From contig CAMLME010000018.1 of the NCBI GenBank assembly GCA_946481235.1, forward strand, positions 1 through 17,305: a stretch of DNA of 17,305 nt, read 5' to 3'. The stretch is from an uncultured Methylobacillus sp. (GTDB taxonomy: Bacteria > Pseudomonadota > Gammaproteobacteria > Burkholderiales > Methylophilaceae). Position numbers and translations under genes: made by a program. Below the pieces are notes generated by a model, which saw nothing but the letters and a program-made list of their open reading frames with translations, did no database searches and had not been told where the DNA came from. The stretch's first letter is position 1. Every line of letters begins with the position of its first letter. Shown here piece by piece: positions 1 to 11,793 of the stretch.

Positions 1-551
1 ATCACGAGCTTCTTGCCGTCCTTGGAAAACTCGATGCCTTCGGTTTCCGGGCCGCCGGTGATCTCCTGAACGACCTTGCCTTGTTTCAGGTCGACCACGG
101 AAATCTTGGCCGGTACTTTGTCTTCGTCATCATCGTCGTCTTCAACGGGGGCTGCGCCCGGCTTGGGAGGAGGCCCGCCCTTGGAGCTGGGCTCGTAGGA
201 AATATAAACCTTGTCGCCCAGCACGCGGACGAACTCGGGGTTTTTGCCGATGGGAATATGTTTTACGGCCTTGCCGGTGGAGAGGTCGATGACGGCGATA
301 TTGCCGTCGTCGCGATTTGCCGTGACCAGCCATTTGCCATCCGCCGTGACGCCAATGCCGCGCGGACCCTTGGCGCCGATATCGAGGGAGCCCTTGGTTT
401 CCATTGTCGCGAGGTCGATCACCGTCACACCGCCGTCCTGGTTGGTAACATAAGCCACGCCTTTATTACCTGCCAGTGTGCAGGAGGCGTTGCCCAGGCC
501 AAGCGTGAGCAGCAGTGCAGCATATAAATTTTTATTGTGCGGATGTTTCAT
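1..551 (-). CDS. Exported YVTN/YncE-type beta-propeller protein, N-terminal part (C-terminus off the left edge)
   Basis: The frame is open from an ATG at 551 to the window edge, so about 183 residues are visible. A GGAGA ribosome-binding site lies 9-10 bases upstream. The N-terminus has a short basic stretch, a hydrophobic Leu/Ala core and a plausible signal peptidase site near TLA-G, so the protein is probably periplasmic. The mature part repeats a blade pattern: GVAYVTNQDGGVTVIDLAT, then WLVTANRDDGNIAVIDLSTG, then KISVVDLKQGKVV. This is typical of YVTN-repeat surface or quinoprotein-associated propellers. A Pro/Gly-rich insert followed by eight acidic residues in a row (EDDDDDED) sits between two blades. 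The substrate or partner cannot be told. The SDR gene upstream on the same strand is 219 bp away, so an operon is uncertain. Confidence 0.85.
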   Translation of the reverse strand, partial: MKHPHNKNLYAALLLTLGLGNASCTLAGNKGVAYVTNQDGGVTVIDLATMETKGSLDIGAKGPRGIGVTADGKWLVTANRDDGNIAVIDLSTGKAVKHIPIGKNPEFVRVLGDKVYISYEPSSKGGPPPKPGAAPVEDDDDDEDKVPAKISVVDLKQGKVVQEITGGPETEGIEFSKDGKKLV

Positions 552-770
552 GCAGATAGTCTCCGTATTTGATGAAGGATTGCCACAGGTCATGAGCGCC
601 TCCGTGCCCGGCGTCATGTACTGATATGAGAATCAAGCAAAGGCAAAAGGTTCCCGAGGGCGCGGAGGATTCTGGACCAGAAACTCCCCGTGCGCAAGCC
701 GCGCCGCGACTTGATTCGGGCTGAATGATCGCCAAGCGCGATGCATCGTACTCTTTAAAAGTCCGACCGA

Positions 771-1466
771 TTACCAGGCTACCTCGGTTCCATCGAAACT
801 GATGAAGCGACCCGAGTCTTCGTCGGTAAGGCGATCAAGCACCTGGCGCATGCCGGCGATGCTTTTCTCAGCGGTGATCAGCGCATTCGGCCCGCCCATG
901 TCGGTCAGTACCCAGCCCGGATGCAGCACGACCGCTCGTATGCCGCGCGGTGCCAGATCCAGCGACAGGCTTTTGACCACCATGTTGACCGCGGCCTTGC
1001 TGGAACGGTAGAGATAGCAGTCGCCGCTGGTATTGTCGGCCATGCTGCCCATCTTGCTGCTGACCGTGGCGACCGTCTTGCCGCTGCCCAGCTCAAGATT
1101 GGAAACGAAGGCTTCGGTAATCTTCATCGGCGCCATGGTATTGACCAGGAATGCCATCATCCACGCATCATAGTCGGTGTGTCCGAATCCGCCGTGGCGA
1201 TCCGGGTAGATGCCGGCATTGTTGATGATGAGGTCGATAGGTATGCCGCGCAGCTGCTGTGCCAGCGCATCGATGGCCGTCAATTCCGCCACGTCGAGCG
1301 CATGCAGTGTTACCCGTCCTTGCGCGGTGTCAGCCAATGCCTGCAATTCGGTGGCTTCCTGCGGCGCACGGCAGCAGGCCAGCACGCGCCAGCCGGCAGC
1401 GGCGTATTGCTTTGTAAATTCGAGTCCCAGGCCACGGTTGGCGCCGGTAATCAGTAAGGTAAACAT
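771..1466 (-). CDS. Short-chain dehydrogenase/reductase (SDR)
   Basis: 231 residues, the usual length of a classical SDR. The Rossmann dinucleotide motif TGANRGLG is at residues 7-14, NNAG at 82-85, a catalytic Ser at 136/137 (VSSKMGS), and the catalytic Tyr153-x3-Lys157 pair in YRSSK. The LHPGWVLTDMGG stretch after the active site resembles the C-factor (CsgA)-like SDR subgroup. It should be a cytoplasmic NAD(P)-dependent oxidoreductase, but the substrate cannot be deduced. The ATG at 1466 has GGAGAA five bases upstream, which fixes the start. The codon before the window's propeller gene is 219 bp away, with no evident terminator between them. Confidence 0.9.
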   Translation of the reverse strand: MFTLLITGANRGLGLEFTKQYAAAGWRVLACCRAPQEATELQALADTAQGRVTLHALDVAELTAIDALAQQLRGIPIDLIINNAGIYPDRHGGFGHTDYDAWMMAFLVNTMAPMKITEAFVSNLELGSGKTVATVSSKMGSMADNTSGDCYLYRSSKAAVNMVVKSLSLDLAPRGIRAVVLHPGWVLTDMGGPNALITAEKSIAGMRQVLDRLTDEDSGRFISFDGTEVAW

Positions 1467-1719
1467 AGGTTCTCCATTCGTTTCAGTCCTGGCCAGGAAT
1501 CAGTGCGACCAGGTCGGTTATCCTTAGCTCGCGCGATAAGTCCTCGCTCCGTTAGCACGGTTGTCCATGCGTTGATCATGCCATCCATTTTTTTCGATAA
1601 CCAGTTAGCGCTTCCAGTTCACCAAACAGCAAATTATCCAGCGCAGTCTGGGTCGTCATGTTGTCGAGTTATTGAATGCTGATTGCACGAAGCCATCAGG
1701 ATCACCTGCCTGCAATCGT
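1467..1719. other. Intergenic stretch between SDR and GNAT genes
   Basis: About 250 bp that should hold the promoter of the SDR gene (-). I see no convincing ORF, RNA motif or terminator here. A short C-rich/T-rich stretch around 1582-1596 is not preceded by a hairpin. Confidence 0.4.
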
Positions 1720-2157
1720 TCATGCCAGCGCTTTCGCAAAATGATGCGAGGTGATCTGCATCTTGCGGCCGAGATATAGCCGGTGCGCGTCGTGCCGCTG
1801 CACGCCGGAATCTAGATGAAATTGCCGGCAGCCGAGGTTGTCCGCTTCGGCCATCAGCCAGTCCAGCAACATGCCGCCATAGCCATGCCTGCGTGCCGAT
1901 TCGCGTGTAACAAGATCGTCGAGATAAAAAGTTTTGCCCCATGCAAGGAACTCCGCTATTCGATAGCCGGCCGCCGCCATCACTTCCCCGCCTGCGGCAA
2001 TATAGACGAGCACGTAGCCATGATTCCGCATCTGGCGCTGCACCTGCACGACAAACTCCTCCTCGCTCAAATGCGGCCGCAATTCGCCCATCGCGGCATA
2101 GCAGGTGCGAATCTCGCTTTCGGTGATGGCTGTGCGGATATCCATGGTCTGTTCCAT
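1720..2157 (-). CDS. GNAT family N-acetyltransferase
   Basis: 145 residues from the ATG at 2157, or 141 from the internal ATG at 2145 (MDIRTAI). The internal start fits the family better, but neither has a strong ribosome-binding site. The acetyl-CoA pyrophosphate-binding signature RRHGYGGML (R-x-x-G-x-G) is at about residues 89-97, preceded by the beta4 strand FYLDDLVT. The C-terminal AHRLYLGRKMQITSHHFAK is the usual GNAT ending, with the Tyr that can act as general acid. The gene probably encodes a stand-alone cytoplasmic acetyltransferase of unknown substrate. No partner gene is evident: the SDR gene lies 250 bp downstream. Confidence 0.88.
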   Translation of the reverse strand: MEQTMDIRTAITESEIRTCYAAMGELRPHLSEEEFVVQVQRQMRNHGYVLVYIAAGGEVMAAAGYRIAEFLAWGKTFYLDDLVTRESARRHGYGGMLLDWLMAEADNLGCRQFHLDSGVQRHDAHRLYLGRKMQITSHHFAKALA

Positions 2158-2224
2158 ATTGTTTGAAAAGGACTTTTTATGATCTTAGCGGTGTTTTAGG
2201 GCCGTTCCGCATTAAAGTAAATTA

Positions 2225-2255
2225 CCGTTAGTCGGTTGAAAGTGCCGTTAGTCGG
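2225..2255 (+). repeat. Tandem 11-bp direct repeat, possible operator
   Basis: CCGTTAGTCGG occurs twice, at 2225-2235 and 2245-2255. The copies are exactly 20 bp apart start to start, about two helical turns. They sit just upstream of the putative promoter of the riboswitch transcript, where paired activator or repressor sites would be expected. The repeat is seen directly; the operator role is inferred. Confidence 0.5.
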
Positions 2256-2263
2256 CCTGAACA

Positions 2264-2290
2264 TAATCGTTTGGAACTTTCTTCCGATAA
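2264..2290 (+). promoter_or_regulatory. Sigma28 (FliA)-like promoter candidate
   Basis: TCCGATAA at 2283-2290 matches the sigma28 -10 consensus GCCGATAA at seven of eight positions. TAATCGTT at 2264-2271 sits at the canonical 11-bp spacing and matches TAAAGTTT at five of eight. Initiation would fall near 2297, immediately before the riboswitch. No good sigma70 pair with 16-18 bp spacing is visible in the same place. This is a sequence match only. Confidence 0.4.
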
Positions 2291-2297
2291 TGTCAAT

Positions 2298-2382
2298 GTA
2301 TCAAAGGCAAACCCATCGAAAGGTGGGGACGCAAAGTCTCCGGTCTAAGGGAATTATCCTACGACAGCGGGACTGCCGGGGC
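2298..2382 (+). ncRNA. Cyclic di-GMP-I (GEMM-I) riboswitch
   Basis: The GEMM-I core is clearly present. GGCAAACCC begins at 2306, followed by the CCCATC/GGTGGG hairpin capped by a GAAA tetraloop (2312-2327). Then come GGGACGCAAAG, CTCCGGTCTAAGG and the terminal ACAGCGGGACTGCCGG with the conserved AGCGGG. These elements follow the order of the known class I aptamer: P1 GNRA-loop hairpin, then the second hairpin containing its receptor. The next gene on this strand is the exported protein at 2724, whose expression it presumably controls. The 340-nt stretch to that start contains no obvious U-tract terminator, so the control mechanism (translation, processing or Rho) is open. Confidence 0.9.
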
Positions 2383-2723
2383 GGGTTTAAGTCGCCATCC
2401 TCGTCAGACCATCTTCCATTTCCTGGACGGTTTCTTAGCTTCATTGCCTCGACTGATTCGCATCTGGTGTTGTCTGCCTGCCACAAAGCTTCTGCAGAAT
2501 GGCGCACCGAGGGAGGAGTCAGTCACATTCATACACCCGGGTCTTTATCCAATCAGGTTTATTGTTTGGCCTGACCTGGTCTGTATGAACTGCACGTTCA
2601 CGTTCAGCGATCAAGAACAAGGACAAGAGCAGCTCCAGCAAATCCGCTCTTCGCGGTCAAGTCGGAACTCGCCGTTGCCATGCGTGGGTGAAGCCTTATT
2701 AAACCTTTTGCCAGGAGTCTCTC
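2383..2723 (+). other. Long leader between c-di-GMP riboswitch and exported protein gene
   Basis: About 340 bp of untranslated leader. I see only small hairpins, such as CCGC/GCGG near 2643-2655, and no intrinsic terminator. An open frame on the plus strand begins at 2444 and overlaps the following gene out of frame; I treat it as spurious. The leader is unusually long for a simple riboswitch expression platform. Confidence 0.45.
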
Positions 2724-3809
2724 ATGAAATTGAACAAACAATGGTTAGCCGCCGGAATCATCATTGCGCTTCCCTTGGGCGCAACAGCGGAAACGCTGGT
2801 GACCGACGCCGTTTTTGGACCTACCAGTTTCTGGTATACGCCGATTCCACTGGATGCGCCTCTGCATTCCAATTCCGCAAATTTCGCGAAGGAAATCCTG
2901 CGTCAAAAAGCGACCTATTACGGTACCGTCACCATCAATACCAAGGACTACACCAGCCCCGTGTATACCGCCGCCGCCAGTGCTCCGACGGTAAAGGTGA
3001 CGCAATGGGATTGCCAGAAAAAGGGCTACTCGGATGCCAGCCTCGCGGAGCAATGGGCAGCGGTTCCTATCCCCAGCTACGCCGTGCCTTCCCGTGGAAC
3101 CGACGCGGAAATGACGATTTACCAGCCCTCGACCGATACCGTCTGGGAATTCTGGCAAGCCAAGAAGGTGGACGGCCAGTGGTTCGCCTGCTGGGGCGGC
3201 CGCATGCAGCAAGCCTCGCAAAGTGATGGCGTGTTTTACAAACACTACGGTACGACCGCCACCAGCCTGCCTTTCCTGGGAGGGCAAATCACTGCCGAAG
3301 AATTGCAGCGAGGTGAAATTCGCCACGCCATTGGGTTTTCGGTCGTGGATGCCGAACACAACACGACCTTCTCCTGGCCGGCGCATCGCTCCGATGGATA
3401 CAACCCCACCAATGTCGCCAATCGTATTCCGGAAGGGCTGCGCTTCCGGCTCGATCCCAGAGTCAATGTCGATGGTTTGTCGATGAGCAGGGCCGGCAAG
3501 ATCATCGCCAAGGCCGCGCAGAAGTACGGTTTCGTAGTGTGGGACAGGTCGGGCGCTTTGGCCTTGCGGGCACAAAATTCCGTTTCATATACTGCGCTGG
3601 GCCAGCCCGATCCTTATCCCACACTCTTCGGCGGTCTTCCGAACTATGCTGTGCTGAATGGATTCCCCTGGGACAAGCTGCAATTCATGCCCATGGATTA
3701 TGGCAAATACACATCTACCACTTCCACCACCTCAGATACCTCCACGACTACTACAACCACGACCACAACTACCACTAAATCCAGACCGGTTAAATCAAGA
3801 CGTAAATAA
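2724..3809 (+). CDS. Uncharacterised exported protein with Thr-rich C-terminal tail, under c-di-GMP riboswitch
   Basis: 361 residues; the ATG has AGGAG eight bases upstream. Residues 1-22 form a Sec signal peptide (MKLNKQ, hydrophobic core, cleavage at ATA-E), so the protein is exported. The mature domain (about 24-328) is rich in Trp and Tyr and has only two cysteines, Cys97 and Cys156, which could form a disulfide. Notable segments are TDTVWEFWQAKK, GEIRHAIGFSVV, a SWPAHRSDG stretch, IPEGLRFRLDP and FPWDKLQFMPMDYG. They read like a folded extracellular enzyme or binding domain, but I cannot name the family. I have a faint impression of similar secreted proteins in actinobacteria. Residues 330-352 are almost pure Thr/Ser, followed by the basic end KSRPVKSRRK. 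The riboswitch upstream suggests a role in the motile-sessile switch, for instance in matrix or cell surface. A terminator follows 26 bp downstream. Confidence 0.85.
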   Translation: MKLNKQWLAAGIIIALPLGATAETLVTDAVFGPTSFWYTPIPLDAPLHSNSANFAKEILRQKATYYGTVTINTKDYTSPVYTAAASAPTVKVTQWDCQKKGYSDASLAEQWAAVPIPSYAVPSRGTDAEMTIYQPSTDTVWEFWQAKKVDGQWFACWGGRMQQASQSDGVFYKHYGTTATSLPFLGGQITAEELQRGEIRHAIGFSVVDAEHNTTFSWPAHRSDGYNPTNVANRIPEGLRFRLDPRVNVDGLSMSRAGKIIAKAAQKYGFVVWDRSGALALRAQNSVSYTALGQPDPYPTLFGGLPNYAVLNGFPWDKLQFMPMDYGKYTSTTSTTSDTSTTTTTTTTTTTKSRPVKSRRK

Positions 3810-3834
3810 AGATATTCCGTTGATGAAATAAGGG

Positions 3835-3863
3835 AAGGGATCGCACAGGCGATCCCTTTTTTT
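3835..3863 (+). terminator. Intrinsic terminator of the riboswitch-controlled gene
   Basis: A 10-bp perfect stem AAGGGATCGC/GCGATCCCTT with an ACAG loop, ending in a run of seven T. It lies 26 bp after the stop at 3809 and also precedes the 3' end of the convergent srkA gene. Confidence 0.93.
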
Positions 3864-3886
3864 AGCTTTGTTGCAGGATTGAGGTA

Positions 3887-4870
3887 TTACACGCTGAGGG
3901 TTGGCTCATCCATCAGCGCAATTTGTTCGCGCAGTTCCAGGATACGGTTTTGCCAGTAATGCTGGGTATTGAACCAGGGAAAATTCATGGGAAAGGCCGG
4001 ATCGTCCCAGCGACGGGCGAGCCATGCGGAATAATGGATAAGCCGCAGGGTGCGCAATGCCTCGATCAGATGCAGTTCGCGCGGGTCGAATTCGCAAAAA
4101 TCCTCATAGCCGGCCAGCACGTCGGACATTTGTCGCGTCATGTCGCCGCGTTCGCCGGAAAGCAGCATCCACAGATCCTGTATCGCCGGCCCCATGCGGC
4201 AATCGTCGAAATCGACAAAATGCGGGCCGTCGTCCGTCCACAGCACATTGCCGGGGTGGCAGTCGCCATGCAGCCGGATACGATTGACGTTGCCGGCCCG
4301 GGCGAAGCAGTGGCGCACACCGTCCAGTGCTTGATCGACAACGCTGCGGTAGGCCGCATCGAGGTCTGCCGGGATGAATCCATGCGACAGCAAATAATCG
4401 CGCGGCTCTTCACCGAAGCTGGCGATATCCAGCGTAGGTCGGTGCACGAAATCGGCAGTGGAACCGATGGCGTGGATGCGCCCGATGAAGCGCCCTAGCC
4501 ATTCCAGAGTCTCGGGGTCACCCAGTTCTGGAGCGCGCCCGCCGCGCCGCGGGAAGAGGGCGAAGCGAAAACCCTCGTAGAAAAGCAGCGATTTCCCATC
4601 GGTAATCAGCGGAGCAACTACCGGGATTTCGCTTTCCGCCAGTGCCTGAACGAAGTCGTGCTCTTCCTGTATGGCCGCGTCGCTCCAGCGGTGCGGGCGA
4701 TAGAACTTTGCCACCAGTGGCGGCGCGTCTTCCATGCCGACCTGGTAAACGCGGTTTTCGTAACTGTTGAGCGCAAGCAAGCGGCCGTCGCAATGAAGGC
4801 CCAGGCTTTCCAGCGCATTCAGGATGAAGTCGGGCGTGAGCTCGGAAAATGGAGTGGGGTGATCGGCCAT
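3887..4870 (-). CDS. srkA: Stress response kinase A (SrkA/YihE/RdoA family)
   Basis: 327 residues, practically the length of E. coli SrkA. It is a cytoplasmic Ser/Thr protein kinase with an aminoglycoside-phosphotransferase-like fold, known in E. coli for protecting against envelope and oxidative stress. Seen here: the ATP-binding Lys in VAKFYRP (residue 55), the catalytic loop HGDCHPGNVLW (Asp203), and the metal-binding Asp220 in FVDFDDCRMGP, followed by QDLWMLLSGE. N-terminal TPDFILNALESLG and SYENRVYQVG are also family-typical. It starts 40 bp after the stop of the Rrf2 regulator on the same strand, so the two are probably co-transcribed. The ribosome-binding site is weak, in keeping with translation from a shared mRNA. 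Confidence 0.93.
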   Translation of the reverse strand: MADHPTPFSELTPDFILNALESLGLHCDGRLLALNSYENRVYQVGMEDAPPLVAKFYRPHRWSDAAIQEEHDFVQALAESEIPVVAPLITDGKSLLFYEGFRFALFPRRGGRAPELGDPETLEWLGRFIGRIHAIGSTADFVHRPTLDIASFGEEPRDYLLSHGFIPADLDAAYRSVVDQALDGVRHCFARAGNVNRIRLHGDCHPGNVLWTDDGPHFVDFDDCRMGPAIQDLWMLLSGERGDMTRQMSDVLAGYEDFCEFDPRELHLIEALRTLRLIHYSAWLARRWDDPAFPMNFPWFNTQHYWQNRILELREQIALMDEPTLSV

Positions 4871-4910
4871 GCCGGCATTCTACAGGCAGCAGGCCGGACG
4901 GCGGCAAAGC

Positions 4911-5381
4911 CTATTTAACAGCGTCCAAATCGGGGCAGAGCGAGCCGGGAAGATCGGTGAGGCGGTATTTCCCCTCACGTACAGCATTGGCTACCGTTTC
5001 CAGGTTCTGGCTTTCGAGCATCTGCAGAATACGTTCCTTGATGGGCTTCCAGACCGGGTGCATCGGGCAGGCCGTTTCATCGCTGCATACCTTGAGCCCG
5101 AGCAGGCACTCCTTGGTGAACCCGGCGCCTTCGGTAATGTTGATCACGTTCATCAAGCTCAGCTTTTGCGGAGCCTCGGACAAGCCGAAGCCGCCGAGCC
5201 GGCCGCGATGGGACGTGAGCAAGCCCCCTTTGCACAGCGATTGCAGGATTTTTGCCAGGTATGCGGATGGCACATCCAGGCTGGCAGCGATTTCACGGCT
5301 CAGCAGTGGCCCTTCGCCGCCATGCAGGGCGATGTAAACCAAAGACTGAATTGCATATTGGCTCGTATGGGAAAGCAGCAT
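4911..5381 (-). CDS. Rrf2-family Fe-S-type transcriptional regulator
   Basis: 156 residues from the ATG at 5381. An in-frame ATG exists at 5432, but only the shorter form begins like the family (MLLSHTSQYAIQSLVYIA). The longer form would also put the promoter inside the gene. The winged helix spans about 1-75, with recognition-helix region SREIAASLDVPSAYLAKILQ and wing HRGRLGGFGL. Cys92, Cys99 and Cys105 (C-x6-C-x5-C, then PMHPVW) form an IscR/NsrR-like Fe-S ligand set, so the protein probably senses redox state, NO or iron. It is divergent from the SRPBCC gene and leads into srkA, both candidate targets. It cannot be called IscR or NsrR from this alone. Confidence 0.9.
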   Translation of the reverse strand: MLLSHTSQYAIQSLVYIALHGGEGPLLSREIAASLDVPSAYLAKILQSLCKGGLLTSHRGRLGGFGLSEAPQKLSLMNVINITEGAGFTKECLLGLKVCSDETACPMHPVWKPIKERILQMLESQNLETVANAVREGKYRLTDLPGSLCPDLDAVK

Positions 5382-5394
5382 ATTTAAGAACTCT

Positions 5395-5408
5395 GGATAT
5401 TTATGTCC
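5395..5408. promoter_or_regulatory. Imperfect palindrome, possible Rrf2 operator
   Basis: GGATATTTATGTCC is a 14-bp imperfect inverted repeat, with GGA/TCC ends and an AT-rich centre. It lies just downstream of the predicted transcription start of the rrf2 gene. An autoregulatory operator is a natural reading, but this is inference. Confidence 0.35.
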
Positions 5409-5415
5409 TATTACG

Positions 5416-5444
5416 ATTTTATAGGAAAACATCCGCTATCCCAA
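5416..5444 (-). promoter_or_regulatory. Sigma70-like promoter of the rrf2-srkA unit
   Basis: On the minus strand TTGGGA (5444-5439) and TAAAAT (5421-5416) are separated by 17 bp. Initiation would fall near 5409, about 28 bp before the ATG at 5381. The match is fair and the position is sensible. Confidence 0.5.
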
Positions 5445-5506
5445 GTACTTATTTTCCCGGTTTATTTCGGCAAAAACTCCTACAGCCGAATCGGAATAAA
5501 TCCGAC

Positions 5507-5534
5507 TTCAAACGCGAGGTGATCCGCCTAGAAT
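5507..5534 (+). promoter_or_regulatory. Candidate promoter of the SRPBCC gene
   Basis: TTCAAA and TAGAAT with a 16-bp spacer, about 65 bp before the ATG at 5600. The -10 is good and the -35 is poor, so an activator or an alternative sigma factor could be needed. Confidence 0.3.
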
Positions 5535-5599
5535 TTCCAACGTGATTCATTGTTTTTAATTCGCAGAAAAACAGATTGCGACCCTTGAAGGAGGACAAA

Positions 5600-6055
5600 A
5601 TGTCTACAGTACAAAAATCGATCGATATCAACGCGCCCGTCAATTCCGTCTACAACCAATGGACCCAGTTCGAAGATTTCCCAGCGTTCATGGAAGGTGT
5701 AAAGGAAGTTCGCCAGCTGGATGACTCGCACCTGCATTGGTGCGCTGAAATTGCAGGCAAGGATGTTGAATGGGATGCCGAAATCACCGAGCAGATTCCC
5801 GATCAGCGCATCGCCTGGCGTAGCGTGGATGGAAAGCAGAATGCCGGTGTCGTCAGCTTCCACAAGCTGAATGACGGTTCGACCCGCGTCATGGTGCAGA
5901 TGGATTACGATCCGGAAGGCACCATGGAAAATGCCGGCGATGCGATAGGCCTTCTCTCGCATCGTGTCGAAGGCGACCTTGAGCGTTTCAAGGATTTCCT
6001 CGAAGCGCGCGGCACCGAAACCGGCGGCTGGAGAGGGACGATACGTCCGTCCTGA
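5600..6055 (+). CDS. SRPBCC / cyclase-dehydrase-like protein
   Basis: 151 residues from the ATG at 5600, which has a perfect AAGGAGG site six bases upstream. An upstream in-frame ATG at 5576 lacks such a site. The N-terminus STVQKSIDINAPVNSVYNQWTQFEDFPAFMEGVKEV is the typical opening of the START-like SRPBCC (polyketide cyclase/dehydrase, COG5637-like) family. It continues with WDAEITEQIPDQRIAWRS and GSTRVMVQMDYDPEG, strands that line the hydrophobic pocket. Family members bind lipids or other hydrophobic ligands, and several are stress-induced, but the ligand here is unknown. It is cytoplasmic, with no signal peptide or membrane segment. It is divergent from the Rrf2 regulator, which may control it. 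A large palindrome follows the gene. Confidence 0.9.
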   Translation: MSTVQKSIDINAPVNSVYNQWTQFEDFPAFMEGVKEVRQLDDSHLHWCAEIAGKDVEWDAEITEQIPDQRIAWRSVDGKQNAGVVSFHKLNDGSTRVMVQMDYDPEGTMENAGDAIGLLSHRVEGDLERFKDFLEARGTETGGWRGTIRPS

Positions 6056-6081
6056 TCTTGTTTATTTAGCGGGCCTTAACC

Positions 6082-6182
6082 AAGGTTTTGTGCAGTGCCA
6101 GTTTGGGTTATGGCGGTGCGAGAAGTCTGAATTGCTCATCCGACTTCTGCGCGCCCGACCCAAACTGGCAGGCGCAAGCCTT
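6082..6182. repeat. Large imperfect palindrome (about 100 nt hairpin)
   Basis: Nested inverted arms: AAGG (6082-6085) with CCTT (6179-6182); TTGTGC (6088-6093) with GCGCAA (6172-6177, one G-T pair); TGCCAGTTTGGGT (6096-6108) with its exact complement at 6158-6170; and AGAAGTC (6121-6127) with GACTTCT (6142-6148). There is no T-run on either side, so it is not a standard intrinsic terminator. It lies between the SRPBCC and topoisomerase genes. It may be a REP/MITE-like element, an RNA processing site or a Rho-independent barrier. Confidence 0.75.
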
Positions 6183-6264
6183 CCCTATAACCCCGTCAAC
6201 CGCGGCTCGGCAACGACGACGCTCACCGCCGTAAAGCCACGCGAAAAAGCCGCATAAGATTTAC

Positions 6265-7365
6265 ATGCCAGATACCGCAGCCGACATCGAGCCGGATCAG
6301 CCGGCTGCATCAGATGCGCCACTCATGGCAGGGCTGGTGCTGGCGGCGGAAACAGGCGGACTACGTTACGTCGCCGACAACATTCCCGGCTTCAGCCGCA
6401 AGCAGACGAGAAGCGGCTTTCGATATCTGGATACCGCTGGCAAGCCATTAAACGACCCCGCACAGATCGCCCGCATCAAATCCCTCGCTATCCCCCCGGC
6501 CTGGACCGACGTCTGGATCTGTCCCGCTAAAAACGGTCACCTGCAAGCCACCGGTCGCGATGCACGCGGCCGCAAGCAATACCGCTACCACAAGAACTGG
6601 CGCGAGGTGCGCGACGAAGCCAAGTACGAACGCATGATAGGCTTCGCCATGCTGCTCCCCGCCATACGTGCCCGGCTAGAAGAAGACATCCGTCGCCCGG
6701 GCTTGAGCCGCGAAAAAGTCATCGCCACCATCATCCGCCTGCTCGACGTGACGATGATCCGAATCGGCAACGAAGAGTATGCCCAGGCCAACAAATCCTT
6801 CGGCCTCACCACGTTGCGCAACCGCCACGTCACCATCGAAGGCGCCGCCATCGAATTTAATTTCAAAGGCAAAAGCGGCATTGCGCATACCATCCGCATC
6901 ACCGAACCGCGCCTTGCACGCATCGTCCGGCGCATGCGCGAATTGCCGGGGCAGGAGCTGTTCCAGTACGTCGACAGCGAAGGTGCGCGCCACTCCATCG
7001 GCTCGGCCGATGTAAATGATTACCTCAAAACCATCACCGGCGAGAACTACACCGCCAAGGATTTCCGCACCTGGTCCGGCACCGTCCAGACTGTCATCGC
7101 GCTTAAAGCGCTCGGGCCGTCCGAAACCGTTACGGATGCAAAAAAGAAAATACGTGTAGCCATCGAAGTGGCTGCCAAAAAGCTCGGGAATACGCCGACA
7201 ATCTGCAGGAAGTGCTATGTGCATCCAGCGGTGCTGGAGGCTTATGAAAACGGGGTTTTGTATGAGGTTGCGGAGAAGAGGTTAAATGGAGAGATGCAGC
7301 CATTCATTGATGGGGAGGAGGCGTTTGCATTGGAGTTATTGCAGCATGCGTTGACGAGGCATTAG
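6265..7365 (+). CDS. DNA topoisomerase IB (poxvirus/eukaryote-like)
   Basis: 366 residues, typical of bacterial type IB topoisomerases, which relax supercoils through a 3'-phosphotyrosyl intermediate. The N-terminal domain contains ADNIPGFSRKQTRSGFRYLD and IPPAWTDVWICP. The catalytic domain starts near KQYRYHKNWREVRDEAKY. RIGNEEYAQANKSFGLTTLR, FNFKGKSGIAH, DFRTWSGT and the nucleophile Tyr318 in RKCYVHPAVLEAY supply the expected Arg, Lys, Arg, His and Tyr chemistry. The ATG at 6265 has no clear ribosome-binding site; ATG 6325 (MAGLVLAAETGG) is an alternative start. The last 60 bases of coding sequence are noticeably less GC-rich than the body. No obvious functional link to its neighbours is visible. 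Confidence 0.95.
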   Translation: MPDTAADIEPDQPAASDAPLMAGLVLAAETGGLRYVADNIPGFSRKQTRSGFRYLDTAGKPLNDPAQIARIKSLAIPPAWTDVWICPAKNGHLQATGRDARGRKQYRYHKNWREVRDEAKYERMIGFAMLLPAIRARLEEDIRRPGLSREKVIATIIRLLDVTMIRIGNEEYAQANKSFGLTTLRNRHVTIEGAAIEFNFKGKSGIAHTIRITEPRLARIVRRMRELPGQELFQYVDSEGARHSIGSADVNDYLKTITGENYTAKDFRTWSGTVQTVIALKALGPSETVTDAKKKIRVAIEVAAKKLGNTPTICRKCYVHPAVLEAYENGVLYEVAEKRLNGEMQPFIDGEEAFALELLQHALTRH

Positions 7366-7421
7366 GATACCTGCTTTACGCTTAACCCTTTAACCAGCAA
7401 TCGCAGGAGATATCTCAAGCA

Positions 7422-7751
7422 ATGTATTCATCGACATTCATCTTTGCCAAGAAGCAGTTTGATAATGACTTCTATCGCCTCGATCAGGCAATTGCAGAGG
7501 CCGCAAAGGAAATTCCTGGATATATGGGCGAAGAGGCTTGGGAGAACCCAGGTACCGGACTGGTTTCGAATGTCTACTATTGGGAAACTCTGGAGGCCCT
7601 GCAAGCTTTGGTTACGCACCCTAAGCACTTGGAAGCAAAAGCTGCTCAAGAAAATTGGCTGGATGGCTATCAAGTCATTATTTCTGAAGTCATCAAGACT
7701 TATGGCGATTCCAAGCTTACGAACTTGCCTACAGCTAAGCTTCCCCTTTGA
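7422..7751 (+). CDS. Small ABM-fold protein (antibiotic biosynthesis monooxygenase-like)
   Basis: 109 residues. AGGAGA lies about 12 bases before the ATG. The pattern MYSSTFIFAKKQFDNDFYRLDQAI, a middle PGYMGEEAWEN, VYYWETLEALQALVTHPKH and WLDGYQVIISEVIKTYG is the alpha/beta dimeric ferredoxin-like ABM/YgiN-type fold. The conserved WET-x3-L and H-x2-H/K elements are in place. Such proteins include quinol or haem-related oxygenases and many of unknown role. It precedes the peroxiredoxin gene by only 12 bp, so the two are probably one transcript, which would fit an oxidative-stress or quinone detoxification role (inference). The sequence is AT-richer than its neighbours. Confidence 0.8.
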   Translation: MYSSTFIFAKKQFDNDFYRLDQAIAEAAKEIPGYMGEEAWENPGTGLVSNVYYWETLEALQALVTHPKHLEAKAAQENWLDGYQVIISEVIKTYGDSKLTNLPTAKLPL

Positions 7752-7763
7752 AGCGTCGTCAGT

Positions 7764-8324
7764 GTGAATCCTGCCTTCTTGCAACTCCCTGTGAATTTAC
7801 CCATTCCTGCCGATGATGGCGCTGCGGCGCATCTTACGGGTTTGCTATTGCCTGACCTGGAGTTGCCGGGTACGGATGGCTCCTGCACTAAACTCGCCGG
7901 GCTACATGGGCGCTGGGTGATCTACATTTACCCCATGACCGGGCGTCCGGATGTGCCGTTGCCTGACGGCTGGGACGGTATTCCCGGCGCGCGCGGCTGT
8001 ACGCCGCAGTCGTGTGGTTTCAAGGATCATTTTGTCGAATTGCAGCGCTTGCGGACGGGCGTGTTCGGCTTGAGCACGCAGGCGAGCGATTACCAGCGCG
8101 AGGCGCGCGACCGGCTGCATTTACCGTTCGAGCTGCTGAGTGATACGGAGTTGAAGCTCAAGGCATTGCTGCGCCTGCCGACCTTCACCGTTGCTGGCAT
8201 GGAGTTGTACAAGCGACTCACCTTGATTGTCGAGGATGGGGTGATTGTGAAGGTGTTTTATCCGGTGTTTCCTCCTGACAGGAACGCGGACGAGGTGCTG
8301 GCCTGGTTGCGACTAGGCGCTTAG
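7764..8324 (+). CDS. PrxQ/BCP-like peroxiredoxin
   Basis: 186 residues from a GTG at 7764. A thioredoxin-like fold starts near GLLLPDLELPGTDGSCTKLAGLHGRWVIYIYP. Two cysteines in GCTPQSCGF, Cys79 and Cys84, have the C-x4-C spacing of PrxQ/BCP, so Cys79 is probably peroxidatic and Cys84 resolving. Compared with the compact BCP active-site loop (YP-x4-PGCT), there is an insert of about 15 residues between YP (56-57) and GC (78-79), and the Thr normally three residues before the Cys is missing. The Arg in KRLTLIVEDG probably serves the active site. It reduces peroxides in the cytoplasm using an unknown thiol donor. It follows the ABM-fold gene by 12 bp and converges on the C-S lyase gene with a 10-bp gap. 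Confidence 0.88.
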   Translation: MNPAFLQLPVNLPIPADDGAAAHLTGLLLPDLELPGTDGSCTKLAGLHGRWVIYIYPMTGRPDVPLPDGWDGIPGARGCTPQSCGFKDHFVELQRLRTGVFGLSTQASDYQREARDRLHLPFELLSDTELKLKALLRLPTFTVAGMELYKRLTLIVEDGVIVKVFYPVFPPDRNADEVLAWLRLGA

Positions 8325-8334
8325 CGCCTCGATT

Positions 8335-9495
8335 CTACCCAATCGCCGCTTTCAATTTCCCCAATGCTTCCATCACCAAGCTTCGCGGCGCGCCGATATT
8401 CATCCGCATGAATCCCGAGCCGCCCATGCCGAAGGCGACGCCGGGCGAGAGGCCGAGGCCGGCTTCGTGGATCATGAAGCGTTTCAGCTCCGCGTCGTCC
8501 ATGCCAAATTCGCGGCAGTCCAGCCAGATCAGGTAAGTGCCTTCGGGTTGGATCAGGCGGATTTTCGGCAATTCCTTTTCGATGTAGTCCGTAACTTCAT
8601 CGCGGGTCTGCTGCAGATAGGCCATCAGGCTTTCCAGCCACGGTGCGCCTTCGCGGTAGGCAGCTTCGAAGGCAACCAGGCTGAAGGGGTTGCCGGCGGT
8701 CATGTGCACCATGTCCAGCACCTTGTTGATCTTCGCGCGGCGTGCGGGGTCGGGGACAATCAATGCGGAAAGGCCGAGCCCGGGGATGTTGAAGGTTTTG
8801 CTCGGGGCGATGGCGGTGACGATATTCGTGACGTCGTCGGTCAGCGTCGCGAGGGCATGGTGGCGGTATTCCGGATAGATCAGGTCGGCGTGGATTTCGT
8901 CGGCCAATATCGTGAGGTCGTGGCGGCGGGCGATGTCGAGCACGCGTTTGAGTTCTTCCGGCTGCCAGACGCGCCCGACCGGGTTGTGCGGTGAGCAGAG
9001 CAGCAGCAGTTTGGCTTCTTGCGCGCATTGTTCCAGGTGCTCGAAATCGATGCTGTAGCGACTATTGTCGAGCTTGAGCGGATTCTGCACGAGCCGCCGC
9101 CCGGTTTTGGTAGCGGCCGAGAAAAACGGAAAATACACCGGCGGCTGCACGATGACGCCTTCGTCCGGTTCCGTCAGCGCCATCGCCACGGCATTGAGCG
9201 AAGGCACCACGCCGGGCACGAGCACGATCCATTCGCGCTGGATGGCCCACGCATGGCGCGTCTTCATCCAGTCGATCAGCGCGGCGTACACGCCCTCTGG
9301 CGGCAGGGTGTAGCCGTAGATGGGGTGCGTGGCGCGTGCTATCAGCGCGCGGGTGACGGCTTCGGGCGCAGCGAAATCCATGTCAGCCACCCACAGCGGC
9401 TGCACGTCGCTGGTGCCGAAATAGGCTTCGCGGCCATCGTATTTGAGCGCACTTGTGCCTTCGCGCGGGATCACGCGGTCGAAATCGAAACTCAA
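8335..9495 (-). CDS. MalY/PatB-type PLP-dependent C-S lyase, probable ovothiol sulfoxide lyase (OvoB)
   Basis: 386 residues from a TTG at 9495, or 391 from a GTG at 9510. I prefer the TTG: GGAG lies eight bases before it, the product then begins SFDFDRVIPREGTSALKYD like MalY/PatB proteins, and TTG overlaps the ovoA stop as TTGA. This is a fold-type I aminotransferase-like lyase. Residue numbers are for the GTG form (subtract 5 for TTG): PLWVADMDFAAPEAV (38-52), PHNPVGRVW (174-182), ADEIH with the PLP Asp204, and SKTFNIPG with Schiff-base Lys238. MalY/PatB enzymes cleave cystathionine-type C-S bonds. Next to OvoA, it most likely cleaves 5-histidylcysteine sulfoxide to 5-thiohistidine, the OvoB step. 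The function is inferred from context; generic cystathionine beta-lyase activity is the alternative. Confidence 0.88.
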   Translation of the reverse strand: MSFDFDRVIPREGTSALKYDGREAYFGTSDVQPLWVADMDFAAPEAVTRALIARATHPIYGYTLPPEGVYAALIDWMKTRHAWAIQREWIVLVPGVVPSLNAVAMALTEPDEGVIVQPPVYFPFFSAATKTGRRLVQNPLKLDNSRYSIDFEHLEQCAQEAKLLLLCSPHNPVGRVWQPEELKRVLDIARRHDLTILADEIHADLIYPEYRHHALATLTDDVTNIVTAIAPSKTFNIPGLGLSALIVPDPARRAKINKVLDMVHMTAGNPFSLVAFEAAYREGAPWLESLMAYLQQTRDEVTDYIEKELPKIRLIQPEGTYLIWLDCREFGMDDAELKRFMIHEAGLGLSPGVAFGMGGSGFMRMNIGAPRSLVMEALGKLKAAIG

Positions 9496-11606
9496 CGCAC
9501 CTTCTCCCACACCGTGACTTCAGAGATTGTGTGCTGGAATTTACGGCGCGTTTCGCGGATGACGAAAGGCACCTCCAGCGGGCCCTGGACCAGCCGGAAA
9601 TGTGGCCCGAGTTCGATTTTCAACCCGTCGAGCGTGCTCATGTTTTCGCCGGATTGCTTGAATCCGCCTATCCATTCTTCGCGTGGGGTGTGTTCTTCCA
9701 GCCAGGTGTAGGGCGAGGCGATCAGCAGCAGGCCGCCGGGGTTGAGCCGCTCGTGCACGGTGCCGAGGAACTTGCGCGGGCTGTAGAGGCGGTCGATCAG
9801 GTTGGCGGCGAGGATGAGGTCGTAGCCGGCAAAATGCGGTTTCAGGTTGCAGGCGTCGCCCTGGAAGAATTCCACCTTGTCGCGCACATCATCCAGCCCA
9901 AGATCGGACAGCCTGCGTTCCTTGTAGAACACCAGTTCGCCTTCGTCGGCGAGGGTGTAACGCAGCACGCCCTGCTGCGCGAGTTGCACGCCCAGCCCGA
10001 TAAAGCGCGCCGAGAAGTCGATGCCGGTGACATGCTCGAAGTGTTTTGCCAATTCAAAGGTTGCGCGGCCGGCAGCGCAGCCGAGATCCAGCGCGCGGCG
10101 CGCCGGTTTGCCTTGCATGGCCGCAATGGCGATTTCGCTTAATGCCTTGGAGAAATTCGGCACGTTGTAATAGATGTCGCCATAGTGGAATTCGGCGTAT
10201 TCCGACAGCATCTTGTCGGTTTCGTAATGCGAGGCGGGCATCGCTTCGGGCGGCTCGTTATCCGAAATCACATAGCGGAAACCGGCATGCTGGAAGAAAT
10301 GGCGGCGGAAGGCATAGCGGGCGCTTTTCAAGGATTCGTTGCCGCATGAAACCCACGAGCCGCCCTTCATCAGGTTGTGGCGGTTGTCGTAGGTGGGCAC
10401 CGTGAAGTCGTCATAAAGCGGGTGCACCTTGAAGCCGTCGAACGGATAGATCGGCGTTTCCGTCCATTGCCACACGTTGCCGACCACGTCGTACAACTCA
10501 CCTTGGCGGAATTGGGTGACCGGACAGGAAGAGGCGCAATGGTCGAGATGAATGTTTGCTGCAGCAGGTCGGTCGGCCGGGACTTCCGAAAGTCCGGCAA
10601 CCTCATGCAGGCGATACCACTCGTCTTCAGTCGGCATGCGCACAGGTTGGCCGGTTTCGGCTTTTTTCCAGTTACAGAAGGCCTTGGCTTCGTGATAATT
10701 CACTTCCGCCGGCCAATCCCACGGCATCGCGACTTCTTCCGTCATCAAACGCAGCCGCCAGGCGCTGCCGTCTGGCACCCAGAAAGTGGGATGCTGCACT
10801 TTGGTGTAGTCCTTCCAGTGGCGGCCTTCGTCTTCCCAGTAGCTGTCGTTGCCGTAACCGCCGGCTTCGACGAACCCGAGGAATTCATGGTTGCTGACCA
10901 GGTAACGACTGACCTGGAACGCCGGTACTTCGGCTTCATGGCTGCCGTATTCGTTGTCCCAACCGTAAGTTGGATCAGATGCCGGCTTGCCCAGCCGTAC
11001 CGAACCGGCGGGGATATCGACGATATCGTTGTGCGGCGCGTCGCCACTGACTTGGCAGGGTAGCCACTCCGGGTGCGGCTTCACGTAATGCAATGAATGC
11101 TGCCGGATCAGGACGGACGAGGTTTCGAGATGGATGCGTTCGTGTTCGATGCCCATCAGGATCGGCCACCACGGATGATCCCAGTCTATGGGCAGCGCGA
11201 GCGGCGTGTTCGCGATCACTTCATCGATTACCCGGCGCATCTCGGCGCGGTAAGTGCGCACTTCGGCCACGGTCGGCCATTTGTAGTTGGTTTCGTCGAG
11301 ATCGTCCCAGCTCATTTCATCGACGCCGATGGCGAACATCGATTCAAAATCGGGGTTGAGACGTTGCGGCACCAGCCCGGCCAGCACGAGCTTGTTGATG
11401 AAAAAGGTCGCGGTATGGCCGAAATAGAAAATCAGCGGATGGCGCAGCGCAATCGGCTTGCGGTAAAAAGCCTCGTCGCTGGCGAGCGTTTCGAACAACT
11501 GCTCGTAGCGGTCGCATGTGGCATGGAAGTAGTCGCGGATTTCCTGACGTTTGCGTTCGGTATCGGAGCCGTTCAGCAAGGGAGTACGGTTAAAAAGAGT
11601 TCTCAT
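9492..11606 (-). CDS. ovoA: Bifunctional OvoA: 5-histidylcysteine sulfoxide synthase / thiohistidine N-methyltransferase
   Basis: 704 residues from the ATG at 11606; a TTG six bases upstream is less likely. The three parts of OvoA are all present. An N-terminal DinB-like domain carries FGHT (His64) and HERIHLE (His155, His159), the H...HxxxHxE ligands of the non-haem iron. A formylglycine-generating-enzyme-like domain spans about 190-440 (VRLGKPASDPTYGWDNEYG, MPTEDEWYRLHE, VGNVWQWTETP, LMKGGSW, YAFRRHFF). A class I SAM methyltransferase starts near residue 504 (ALDLGCAAG, VTGIDFS). OvoA joins Cys sulfur to C5 of His using O2, and the C-terminal domain N-methylates thiohistidine to ovothiol A. 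The stop codon overlaps the start of the C-S lyase gene, so the two are translationally coupled. Confidence 0.96.
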   Translation of the reverse strand: MRTLFNRTPLLNGSDTERKRQEIRDYFHATCDRYEQLFETLASDEAFYRKPIALRHPLIFYFGHTATFFINKLVLAGLVPQRLNPDFESMFAIGVDEMSWDDLDETNYKWPTVAEVRTYRAEMRRVIDEVIANTPLALPIDWDHPWWPILMGIEHERIHLETSSVLIRQHSLHYVKPHPEWLPCQVSGDAPHNDIVDIPAGSVRLGKPASDPTYGWDNEYGSHEAEVPAFQVSRYLVSNHEFLGFVEAGGYGNDSYWEDEGRHWKDYTKVQHPTFWVPDGSAWRLRLMTEEVAMPWDWPAEVNYHEAKAFCNWKKAETGQPVRMPTEDEWYRLHEVAGLSEVPADRPAAANIHLDHCASSCPVTQFRQGELYDVVGNVWQWTETPIYPFDGFKVHPLYDDFTVPTYDNRHNLMKGGSWVSCGNESLKSARYAFRRHFFQHAGFRYVISDNEPPEAMPASHYETDKMLSEYAEFHYGDIYYNVPNFSKALSEIAIAAMQGKPARRALDLGCAAGRATFELAKHFEHVTGIDFSARFIGLGVQLAQQGVLRYTLADEGELVFYKERRLSDLGLDDVRDKVEFFQGDACNLKPHFAGYDLILAANLIDRLYSPRKFLGTVHERLNPGGLLLIASPYTWLEEHTPREEWIGGFKQSGENMSTLDGLKIELGPHFRLVQGPLEVPFVIRETRRKFQHTISEVTVWEKVR

Positions 11607-11793
11607 GGTCAAGCATAGTCAATCGTTAGCGGCAATGGTTCGATTAAACATCATGCCGATGACGATGTCATGCTTAAGTCGCAACTATGTGGACATAGAG
11701 GTAGGATGGATGAGCGGAAGGCGTGATTCGCCGAAAGCGGACGCCGCGGGGTGAAGTGCGCTCAAGTCCCCATCTGACGAAAGTACAGGAGAG

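Follow-up and report, generated by a model that had tools for sequence, protein, structure and literature searches.

The window analyzed here, a stretch of 17,305 nucleotides (nt) from an uncultured Methylobacillus sp. (contig CAMLME010000018.1), carries a riboswitch that appears to have been captured by a new target gene. As judged by sequence comparison, a canonical class I aptamer for cyclic di-GMP (c-di-GMP) is followed by a 5' fragment, now decayed, of an HD-GYP-type phosphodiesterase gene and then by the gene of a probably exported protein family. The preferred explanation, with a probability of roughly 0.6, is that a copy of this family gene lies behind the aptamer of a broken phosphodiesterase gene, responds to c-di-GMP, and encodes a product that acts on exopolysaccharide. 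The original prediction had described a simple unit of riboswitch and secreted target; the riboswitch and a probably exported target were recovered, while the leader between them was found to hold the gene remnant. The features of the unit are as follows.

2219..2255, + strand: two 17-nt direct repeats, 88% alike and 20 nt apart from start to start, a possible activator site
2286..2291, + strand: GATAAT, a possible -10 element noted by eye, below the promoter-scan threshold
2296..2380, + strand: c-di-GMP-I riboswitch aptamer (RF01051, 82.8 bits), identical to the aptamer of Methylobacillus sp. MM3 at 77/83 nt
2386..2509, + strand: probably the 5' untranslated leader that once belonged to the HD-GYP-type gene (weak), collinear with the MM3 leader
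2510..2648, + strand: decayed 5' coding remnant of the HD-GYP-type phosphodiesterase gene, start codon lost, with small insertions and deletions
2713..2717, + strand: AGGAG, a probable ribosome-binding site noted by eye
2724..3809, + strand: gene of a 361-amino-acid (aa) probably exported protein with a conserved domain at about residues 24-330 and a Thr-rich tail
3829..3864, + strand: intrinsic-terminator-like hairpin of 16 pairs with a loop of 4 and a T run

In the proposed course of events, a duplicated or moved copy of the family gene would have come to lie downstream of a riboswitch whose phosphodiesterase gene had been disrupted. Its transcript would now start ahead of the aptamer, and its expression would respond to c-di-GMP. 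The exported protein would bind, trim, or otherwise process the exopolysaccharide of the cell itself, and the sessile signal would thereby be coupled to the properties of the matrix. In several clusters the family gene overlaps its upstream neighbor, so that it probably lacks a separate promoter, and the transcript is likely to come from the riboswitch promoter. Both the promoter region and the aptamer look like those of the former phosphodiesterase gene.

Riboswitches control many genes, and the route by which a gene acquires one is rarely visible. The window seems to preserve an intermediate, in which the aptamer is sound, the start of its earlier target is left in decayed form, and another target now follows. 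The case also suggests a testable function in exopolysaccharide biology, governed by c-di-GMP, for a large protein family that has no name and is tied to phage tail proteins as well.

Aptamer and phosphodiesterase gene remnant

The GEMM-I aptamer named in the original prediction was recovered by covariance-model search. RF01051 matched positions 2296-2380 of the + strand (82.8 bits, E 2.3e-15) against a gathering score of 35, and the match spanned the whole model (1-87) with an accuracy of 0.99. One other match in the window reached its gathering score; it overlapped the RF01051 site and belonged to the same clan. The base that we tentatively take to be equivalent to G20 of the Vc2 aptamer is a G. 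The Vc2 position is described as a selectivity factor among cyclic dinucleotides (PMC9262584).

The aptamer of the window is 92.8% identical (77/83 nt) to one in MM3 (L084/L188). There it precedes an intact gene, with a distance of 199 nt from the first base of the core to the start codon. The product carries DUF3391 and HD domains, and it is named HD-GYP-type on the basis of these domains. The leader of the window is collinear with the leader and first codons of MM3, with a local score of 93 compared to a maximum of 40 among 1000 random MM3 stretches.

Segments of the region were also compared with MM3 individually, with 500 random stretches for each. The 150 nt upstream scored 32 (maximum random score 27) with 53/82 identical positions, and 2385-2460 scored 26, which was equalled by 11 of the 500 random stretches. 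The segments 2520-2600 and 2600-2700 scored 33 and 37 (maxima 31 and 32), respectively, while similarity in 2460-2520 and 2690-2800 was not above chance. Taken as one segment, 2500-2720 scored 76 (maximum 34 of 500) with 99/150 identical positions (66%). Homology to MM3 appears clear from about 2500 to 2648 and patchy before that. The triplet at 2510-2512, which aligns with the MM3 start codon, is not a start codon, and small insertions and deletions follow in the alignment. Neither an intact HD domain nor a 3' remnant was recovered, as the MM3 protein had no match in the whole window at E ≤ 1.

The second-best leader match among 187 related genomes also precedes an HD-GYP-type gene (L209, G185:C21). 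Its aptamer is 90% identical to that of the window, and it scored 60 against the window leader (maximum 43 of 1000 random). The 38 other riboswitch-locus leaders compared, namely the 42 loci L085-L126 with L088, L094, L110, and L114 left out, scored 35 or less. Conservation along the region is uneven. The aptamer is 93% identical to MM3 compared to 66% in the remnant, 53/82 upstream, and 78% over 943 nt between the protein-coding region and its MM3 relative, and therefore looks selected.

Target gene and protein family

The leader between aptamer and gene measures 343 nt. The N-terminus of the 361-aa protein resembles a Sec signal peptide by eye, which agrees with the secreted product of the original prediction. 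The protein was said to be rich in Trp and Tyr, and this holds mildly, at 3.0% W and 4.7% Y, with Thr at 11.9%. Terminator-like sites in 1800-4400 numbered 6 compared to 2.8 in shuffles; of these, the strong hairpin at 3829-3864, with 16 pairs followed by T's, is the one of note and closes the unit as had been proposed.

In keeping with the earlier statement that no family could be named, Pfam and NCBIfam scans of the protein gave no match up to E 10. Sequence relatives are numerous, with 1,544 at E ≤ 1e-3, the best 120 of which are 64-100% identical to the window protein; among the relatives are metagenome proteins (P0002-P0017) at 78-83% identity. A full-length identical database protein (P0001, a cluster with 27 member sequences) sits on a separate contig record of 1,620 nt. 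Sequence searches of the PDB returned nothing convincing, the best E being 1 for the single sequence and 0.25 for a 41-row profile. An AlphaFold model from 28 rows reached a predicted local distance difference test score (pLDDT) of 72.6, while 117 more diverse rows over residues 24-330 gave a pLDDT of 96.6 and a predicted template-modeling score (pTM) of 0.93. In the structural check suggested earlier, neither model matched the PDB in Foldseek at E ≤ 1e-3. The residues that do not vary among the 117 rows are, as numbered on the full-length protein, D127, W153, W157, G176, H201, P219, A220, D224, G238, G269, and D274, and Asp/His chemistry is possible from these residues.

Additional domains occur in some relatives. 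Pfam was run on 10 relatives chosen mostly for extra length or distance, and 7 carried other domains at E ≤ 0.01: F5/8 type C (1), NPCBM (2), malectin (1), Laminin_G_3 (1), and InlB-type repeats (2). Domains of carbohydrate-binding type were present in 5 of the 10. A distant viral member has 96 relatives in its own search, of which 10 had precomputed Pfam domains (malectin 5, NPCBM 2, PF17957 3).

The family extends to phages. Residues 31-282 match the PHROG 17388 profile ('minor tail protein') with E 7e-15, and tblastn returned 69 phage records, all of Gordonia phages and none covering 80% of the query; identity was 24.8-29.4% among the 20 matches listed. In a viral structure library, five proteins matched the model with pLDDT 96.6 at E ≤ 1e-3. 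One of them is a minor tail protein of a Gordonia phage, with a query TM-score of 0.72, and another, from an uncultured phage, bears the label parallel beta-helix repeat. Phage tail proteins usually have a job that concerns the cell surface.

Two family names were also considered. Database names of relatives say DUF4124 (PF13511), yet the window protein matches no Pfam family to E 10. N-terminal extensions were observed in four riboswitch-linked copies (L033, L040, L063, and L064); that of L033 matches DUF4124 with 23.4 bits at a cut-off of 22, and that of L063 has no DUF4124 match at E ≤ 0.01. The MltA lytic transglycosylases (PF03562) likewise gave no Pfam match, and a profile comparison with them had a probability of 0.2%. 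In a second structural look, MltA-type lytic transglycosylases occupied 6 of 14 rows and aligned over most of the model.

Exopolysaccharide neighborhoods of the relatives

The best 80 genome loci of 110 relatives from an alignment search were kept, and 3 viral contigs were added. Neighboring open reading frames (ORFs) of 65 loci were clustered with a simple ORF caller, which missed the family gene in 14 of the 80 loci and mis-called a few more, and cluster representatives were identified by Pfam. The most recurrent neighbors across the 65 loci were GT2 (21), GT4 (17), Wzy (15), acyltransferase (14), and WecG (13), followed by hexapeptide transferase (12), epimerase (9), and UDP-glucose dehydrogenase (6).

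Loci with at least two of six core markers were counted as exopolysaccharide clusters; L014 (a near copy of L008), L065, L067-L074, L076-L080, and L081-L083 were left out of the count. Such clusters surrounded 11 of 16 Methylophilaceae-type copies without a riboswitch and 20 of 44 loci of other taxa, compared to 0 of 8 riboswitch-linked copies (the window being counted for 1-8600). The difference between riboswitch-linked and riboswitch-free Methylophilaceae-type copies gives a Fisher p of 0.002, uncorrected for kinship. As a control, 11-kb regions were placed arbitrarily in related genomes, and none of the 19 held any marker. None of the marker genes was found in 1-8600 of the window. Weak epimerase matches occurred in L064 and L185.

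The beta-barrel neighbor of the relatives L006 and L004 is EpsL (TIGR03014, 395.6 and 415.1 bits, respectively, at a cut-off of 275), which is of the type found in XrtB/PEP-CTERM-associated polysaccharide loci; L006 also has GalU above cut-off. An acyltransferase is the ORF immediately upstream of the family gene in 11 of the 64 loci in which both ORFs were called, and 10 of these 11 are among the 16 riboswitch-free Methylophilaceae-type copies. The two genes overlap by 14 nt in six loci (L001, L002, L005, L006, L012, and L039). A remnant of the acyltransferase beside the window ATG was sought by eye and was not convincing.

On these sequence grounds, the protein family is often resident in exopolysaccharide clusters. 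A matrix component had been predicted, and a link to the matrix is supported by these loci and the carbohydrate-binding-type domains; a structural component is one option, and a binder or processor of exopolysaccharide appears at least as likely.

Riboswitch linkage across genomes

The core motif was searched in 83 loci. Rfam was run on 13 of them, and the other 70 relied on the motif search and on whole-genome scans where the genome was included; the motif also had a few matches at some distance from that gene, not all of which were checked. RF01051 was found upstream of the family gene in five loci (L063, L064, L033, L040, and L054). In L054 (Methylotenera PB2.3.53), a 109-aa ORF at 4654-4983 with a signal-peptide-like start sits between riboswitch and family gene; it overlaps the latter by 4 nt and has no Pfam match.

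Across 187 genomes of the family of Methylovorus mays (G015), RF01051 was detected in 39, with 69 sites of which 68 were over the cut-off, under strict filters that lose weak sites. One of them (G185) holds 13 c-di-GMP-I aptamers compared to 1-4 in the other 38. The protein was found at E ≤ 1e-3 in 26 genomes, and 15 genomes together hold 25 strong copies (E < 1e-100); the weaker matches were proteins of about 420-495 aa. Distant relatives of this kind (L142-L152), about 24-31% identical with open frames of 420-494 aa, occur at most three per genome in the same family of genomes, and three of them scanned with Pfam had no match.

RF01051 lay on the same strand and at most 1 kb upstream of 7 of the 25 strong copies, in 6 of the 15 genomes, as matched by hand (G015:C8, G184:C2, G007:C6, G168:C1, G014:C126, G014:C183, and G013:C30). 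By a rough hand estimate, the number of linked copies expected by chance is far below one. The suggested look for the same riboswitch upstream of homologues was positive for these copies, while most relatives examined carry none. These include the two nearest genome-borne relatives, L006 (85% identical) and L001, both of which belong to exopolysaccharide clusters and lack RF01051 in the locus; a permissive riboswitch search of L006 was also negative.

On a tree of 70 of the 75 gathered rows, built by a quick method without bootstrap, the riboswitch label requires 5 changes, at least 4 of them forced by well-supported branches. The mean for shuffled labels was 7.7, and 0 of 500 shuffles were as low. 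This count does not separate gain from loss. Ten other c-di-GMP-I targets in related genomes were scanned for domains; three were HD-GYP-type, and the remaining seven were one each of GGDEF (with PAS), GGDEF-EAL, EAL, HDOD, protoglobin-PAS-HisKA, ShlB, and beta-helix.

Proposed control of the gene and competing explanations

Judging from the sequence, c-di-GMP probably controls the gene. As to its direction, we lean slightly toward expression being raised rather than lowered by high c-di-GMP, since the Vc1 riboswitch of Vibrio cholerae is reported to control gbpA positively (PMC4744006). Forcing the aptamer fold costs about 2-7 kcal/mol across lengths in constrained folding.

Several observations weigh against the captured, c-di-GMP-responsive unit. 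On the side of the expression platform, the mean unpaired probability of the ribosome-binding site was 0.42 in the free fold and 0.43 with the aptamer formed, so that no ligand-dependent change was seen, and in a wider stretch the values were 0.52 and 0.54; these folds are of single sequences of about 450-500 nt and are unreliable at such length. No terminator-like site lies between aptamer and gene in the scan of 1800-4400. MM3 has a predicted anti-P1 pairing (probability 0.35-0.93, positions 73-79) without an equally strong counterpart in the window, and since this pairing is not kept, the platform may be damaged. Control may act through Rho or through a structure missed by folding, or the aptamer may be a relic. 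Regarding the origin, two distant HD-GYP-type loci (L110 and L114) scored 32 and 28 against the window leader, which is not above chance, and no synteny with MM3 was found beyond the aptamer (19.5 kb). Among the seven linked copies, three are orthologs of one another in Methylovorus. The exopolysaccharide link is one of neighborhood, with 5 of 16 and 24 of 44 riboswitch-free loci falling short of two markers, and because the markers were taken from the surroundings of riboswitch-free copies, the contrast is biased to that side. In addition, L063 and L064 (both Methylovorus) have a lone sugar transferase (PF02397) encoded on the opposite strand, within 1 kb beyond the family gene.

In one alternative the aptamer is a relic, its platform having decayed after the phosphodiesterase gene broke, and c-di-GMP has no hold on transcription of the new gene, whether this starts at the same promoter or at another. 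This is unlikely, though the most probable of the alternatives. It would account for the missing platform, the unchanged accessibility of the ribosome-binding site, and the weak anti-P1 pairing in the window, yet the surroundings decayed around an aptamer that still scores 82.8 bits and is 93% identical to that of MM3, and RF01051 is linked to other copies of the family as well, as in the 7 of 25 strong copies among the 187 genomes. A different history, with the riboswitch placed before the family gene in early Methylophilaceae and then lost by most lineages, has a small chance of being correct. The tree agrees with it insofar as gain and loss are not separable and the linked rows are clustered (5 changes compared to 7.7 when shuffled). 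However, the window aptamer is closest to those ahead of HD-GYP-type genes and the leader holds a remnant of such a gene, and therefore the pairing in the window at least looks secondary; moreover, the two nearest genome-borne relatives belong to exopolysaccharide clusters without a riboswitch. That the junction is an artefact of assembly or binning joining unrelated pieces is very improbable. The lack of MM3 synteny past the aptamer would fit an artefact, but the remnant is itself decayed (66% identity, start lost, insertions and deletions), unlike a fresh chimera of intact pieces, and separate, related riboswitch-gene pairs are present in other genomes.

The function of the protein is a separate matter. 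It could be a phage-derived domain of tail or receptor type kept for adhesion or defence rather than an exopolysaccharide enzyme or binder, as the PHROG 17388 match (E 7e-15), the 69 Gordonia phage records, and the five viral models at E ≤ 1e-3 would allow. We regard this as improbable, as the scanned window neighbors match cellular families with no phage gene recognised, and the bacterial copies recur in exopolysaccharide clusters. Of 10 neighbors scanned, 6 matched cellular families at E ≤ 1e-20 and 4 had no match, with no phage library applied to them. For the captured riboswitch, a broader statement is more tentative and somewhat short of even odds: a riboswitch of c-di-GMP-breakdown feedback would have been captured by an exopolysaccharide-cluster gene, the association would have more than one origin in methylotrophs, and the protein would represent a new carbohydrate-active family, without a PDB-matched fold, found in exopolysaccharide loci and phage tails.

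Comparison with known systems

The closest parallel in kind is Vc1-gbpA, where the product is likewise exported and carbohydrate-linked and the long 5' leader of its gene contains a class I c-di-GMP aptamer (PMC4744006). GbpA binds surfaces containing N-acetylglucosamine, whereas the window protein belongs to another, unnamed family. The window further differs by the gene remnant in its leader, and its control is predicted from the sequence. The points of difference from gbpA are the target family itself, the exopolysaccharide loci in which that family is often found, and an apparent history of capture that can still be read from the sequence.

MM3 shares the aptamer at 77/83 nt and a collinear leader with first codons; its HD-GYP-type gene is intact, whereas the window keeps the 5' start and continues with another gene. 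In EpsL-type (XrtB/PEP-CTERM, methanolan-like) loci, the relatives L006 and L004 adjoin genes for EpsL, glycosyltransferase or Wzy, acyltransferase, and sugar-nucleotide enzymes, but the window copy lacks the marker genes in 1-8600. The methanolan exopolysaccharide locus is that of Methylobacillus sp. 12S and resembles the eps cluster of Herbaspirillum seropedicae (PMC1569441, PMC4195743). With the Gordonia phage minor tail proteins (PHROG 17388), the homologous domain is shared over residues 31-282 of the protein, but at 24.8-29.4% identity (20 matches listed) and without recognised phage neighbors in the window. In the titles and abstract openings listed, with most subscription papers outside the search, no account of the protein family or of a Methylophilaceae riboswitch was found, and the one paper co-mentioning Methylovorus and riboswitch was a Leptospira genome paper.

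Upstream elements and other observations

A scan of 1800-4400 for sigma-70-like promoters gave 0 sites above threshold compared to 1.6 in shuffles. A promoter between aptamer and gene, which had been named as a finding that would speak against riboswitch control, was thus not seen, and likewise none was seen ahead of the aptamer. The GATAAT at 2286-2291 would possibly put the transcript start near 2298. Upstream of the riboswitch, the direct repeats share the core CCGTTAGTCGG, at 2225 and 2245, with no further exact copy in the window or in 183 loci examined. The repeat at 2219-2255 may be a binding site for an activator. The MM3 riboswitch also has a look-alike repeat pair upstream with the same spacing of 20, as seen by eye.

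Beside the riboswitch-linked family gene of L063 (Methylovorus mays), 6711-8555 holds genes for a sugar transferase (PF02397) and a sigma-54 activator. Further along the window, 9492-11612 resembles OvoA; the domains for 5-histidylcysteine sulfoxide synthase and 4-mercaptohistidine methyltransferase each exceed their cut-off.

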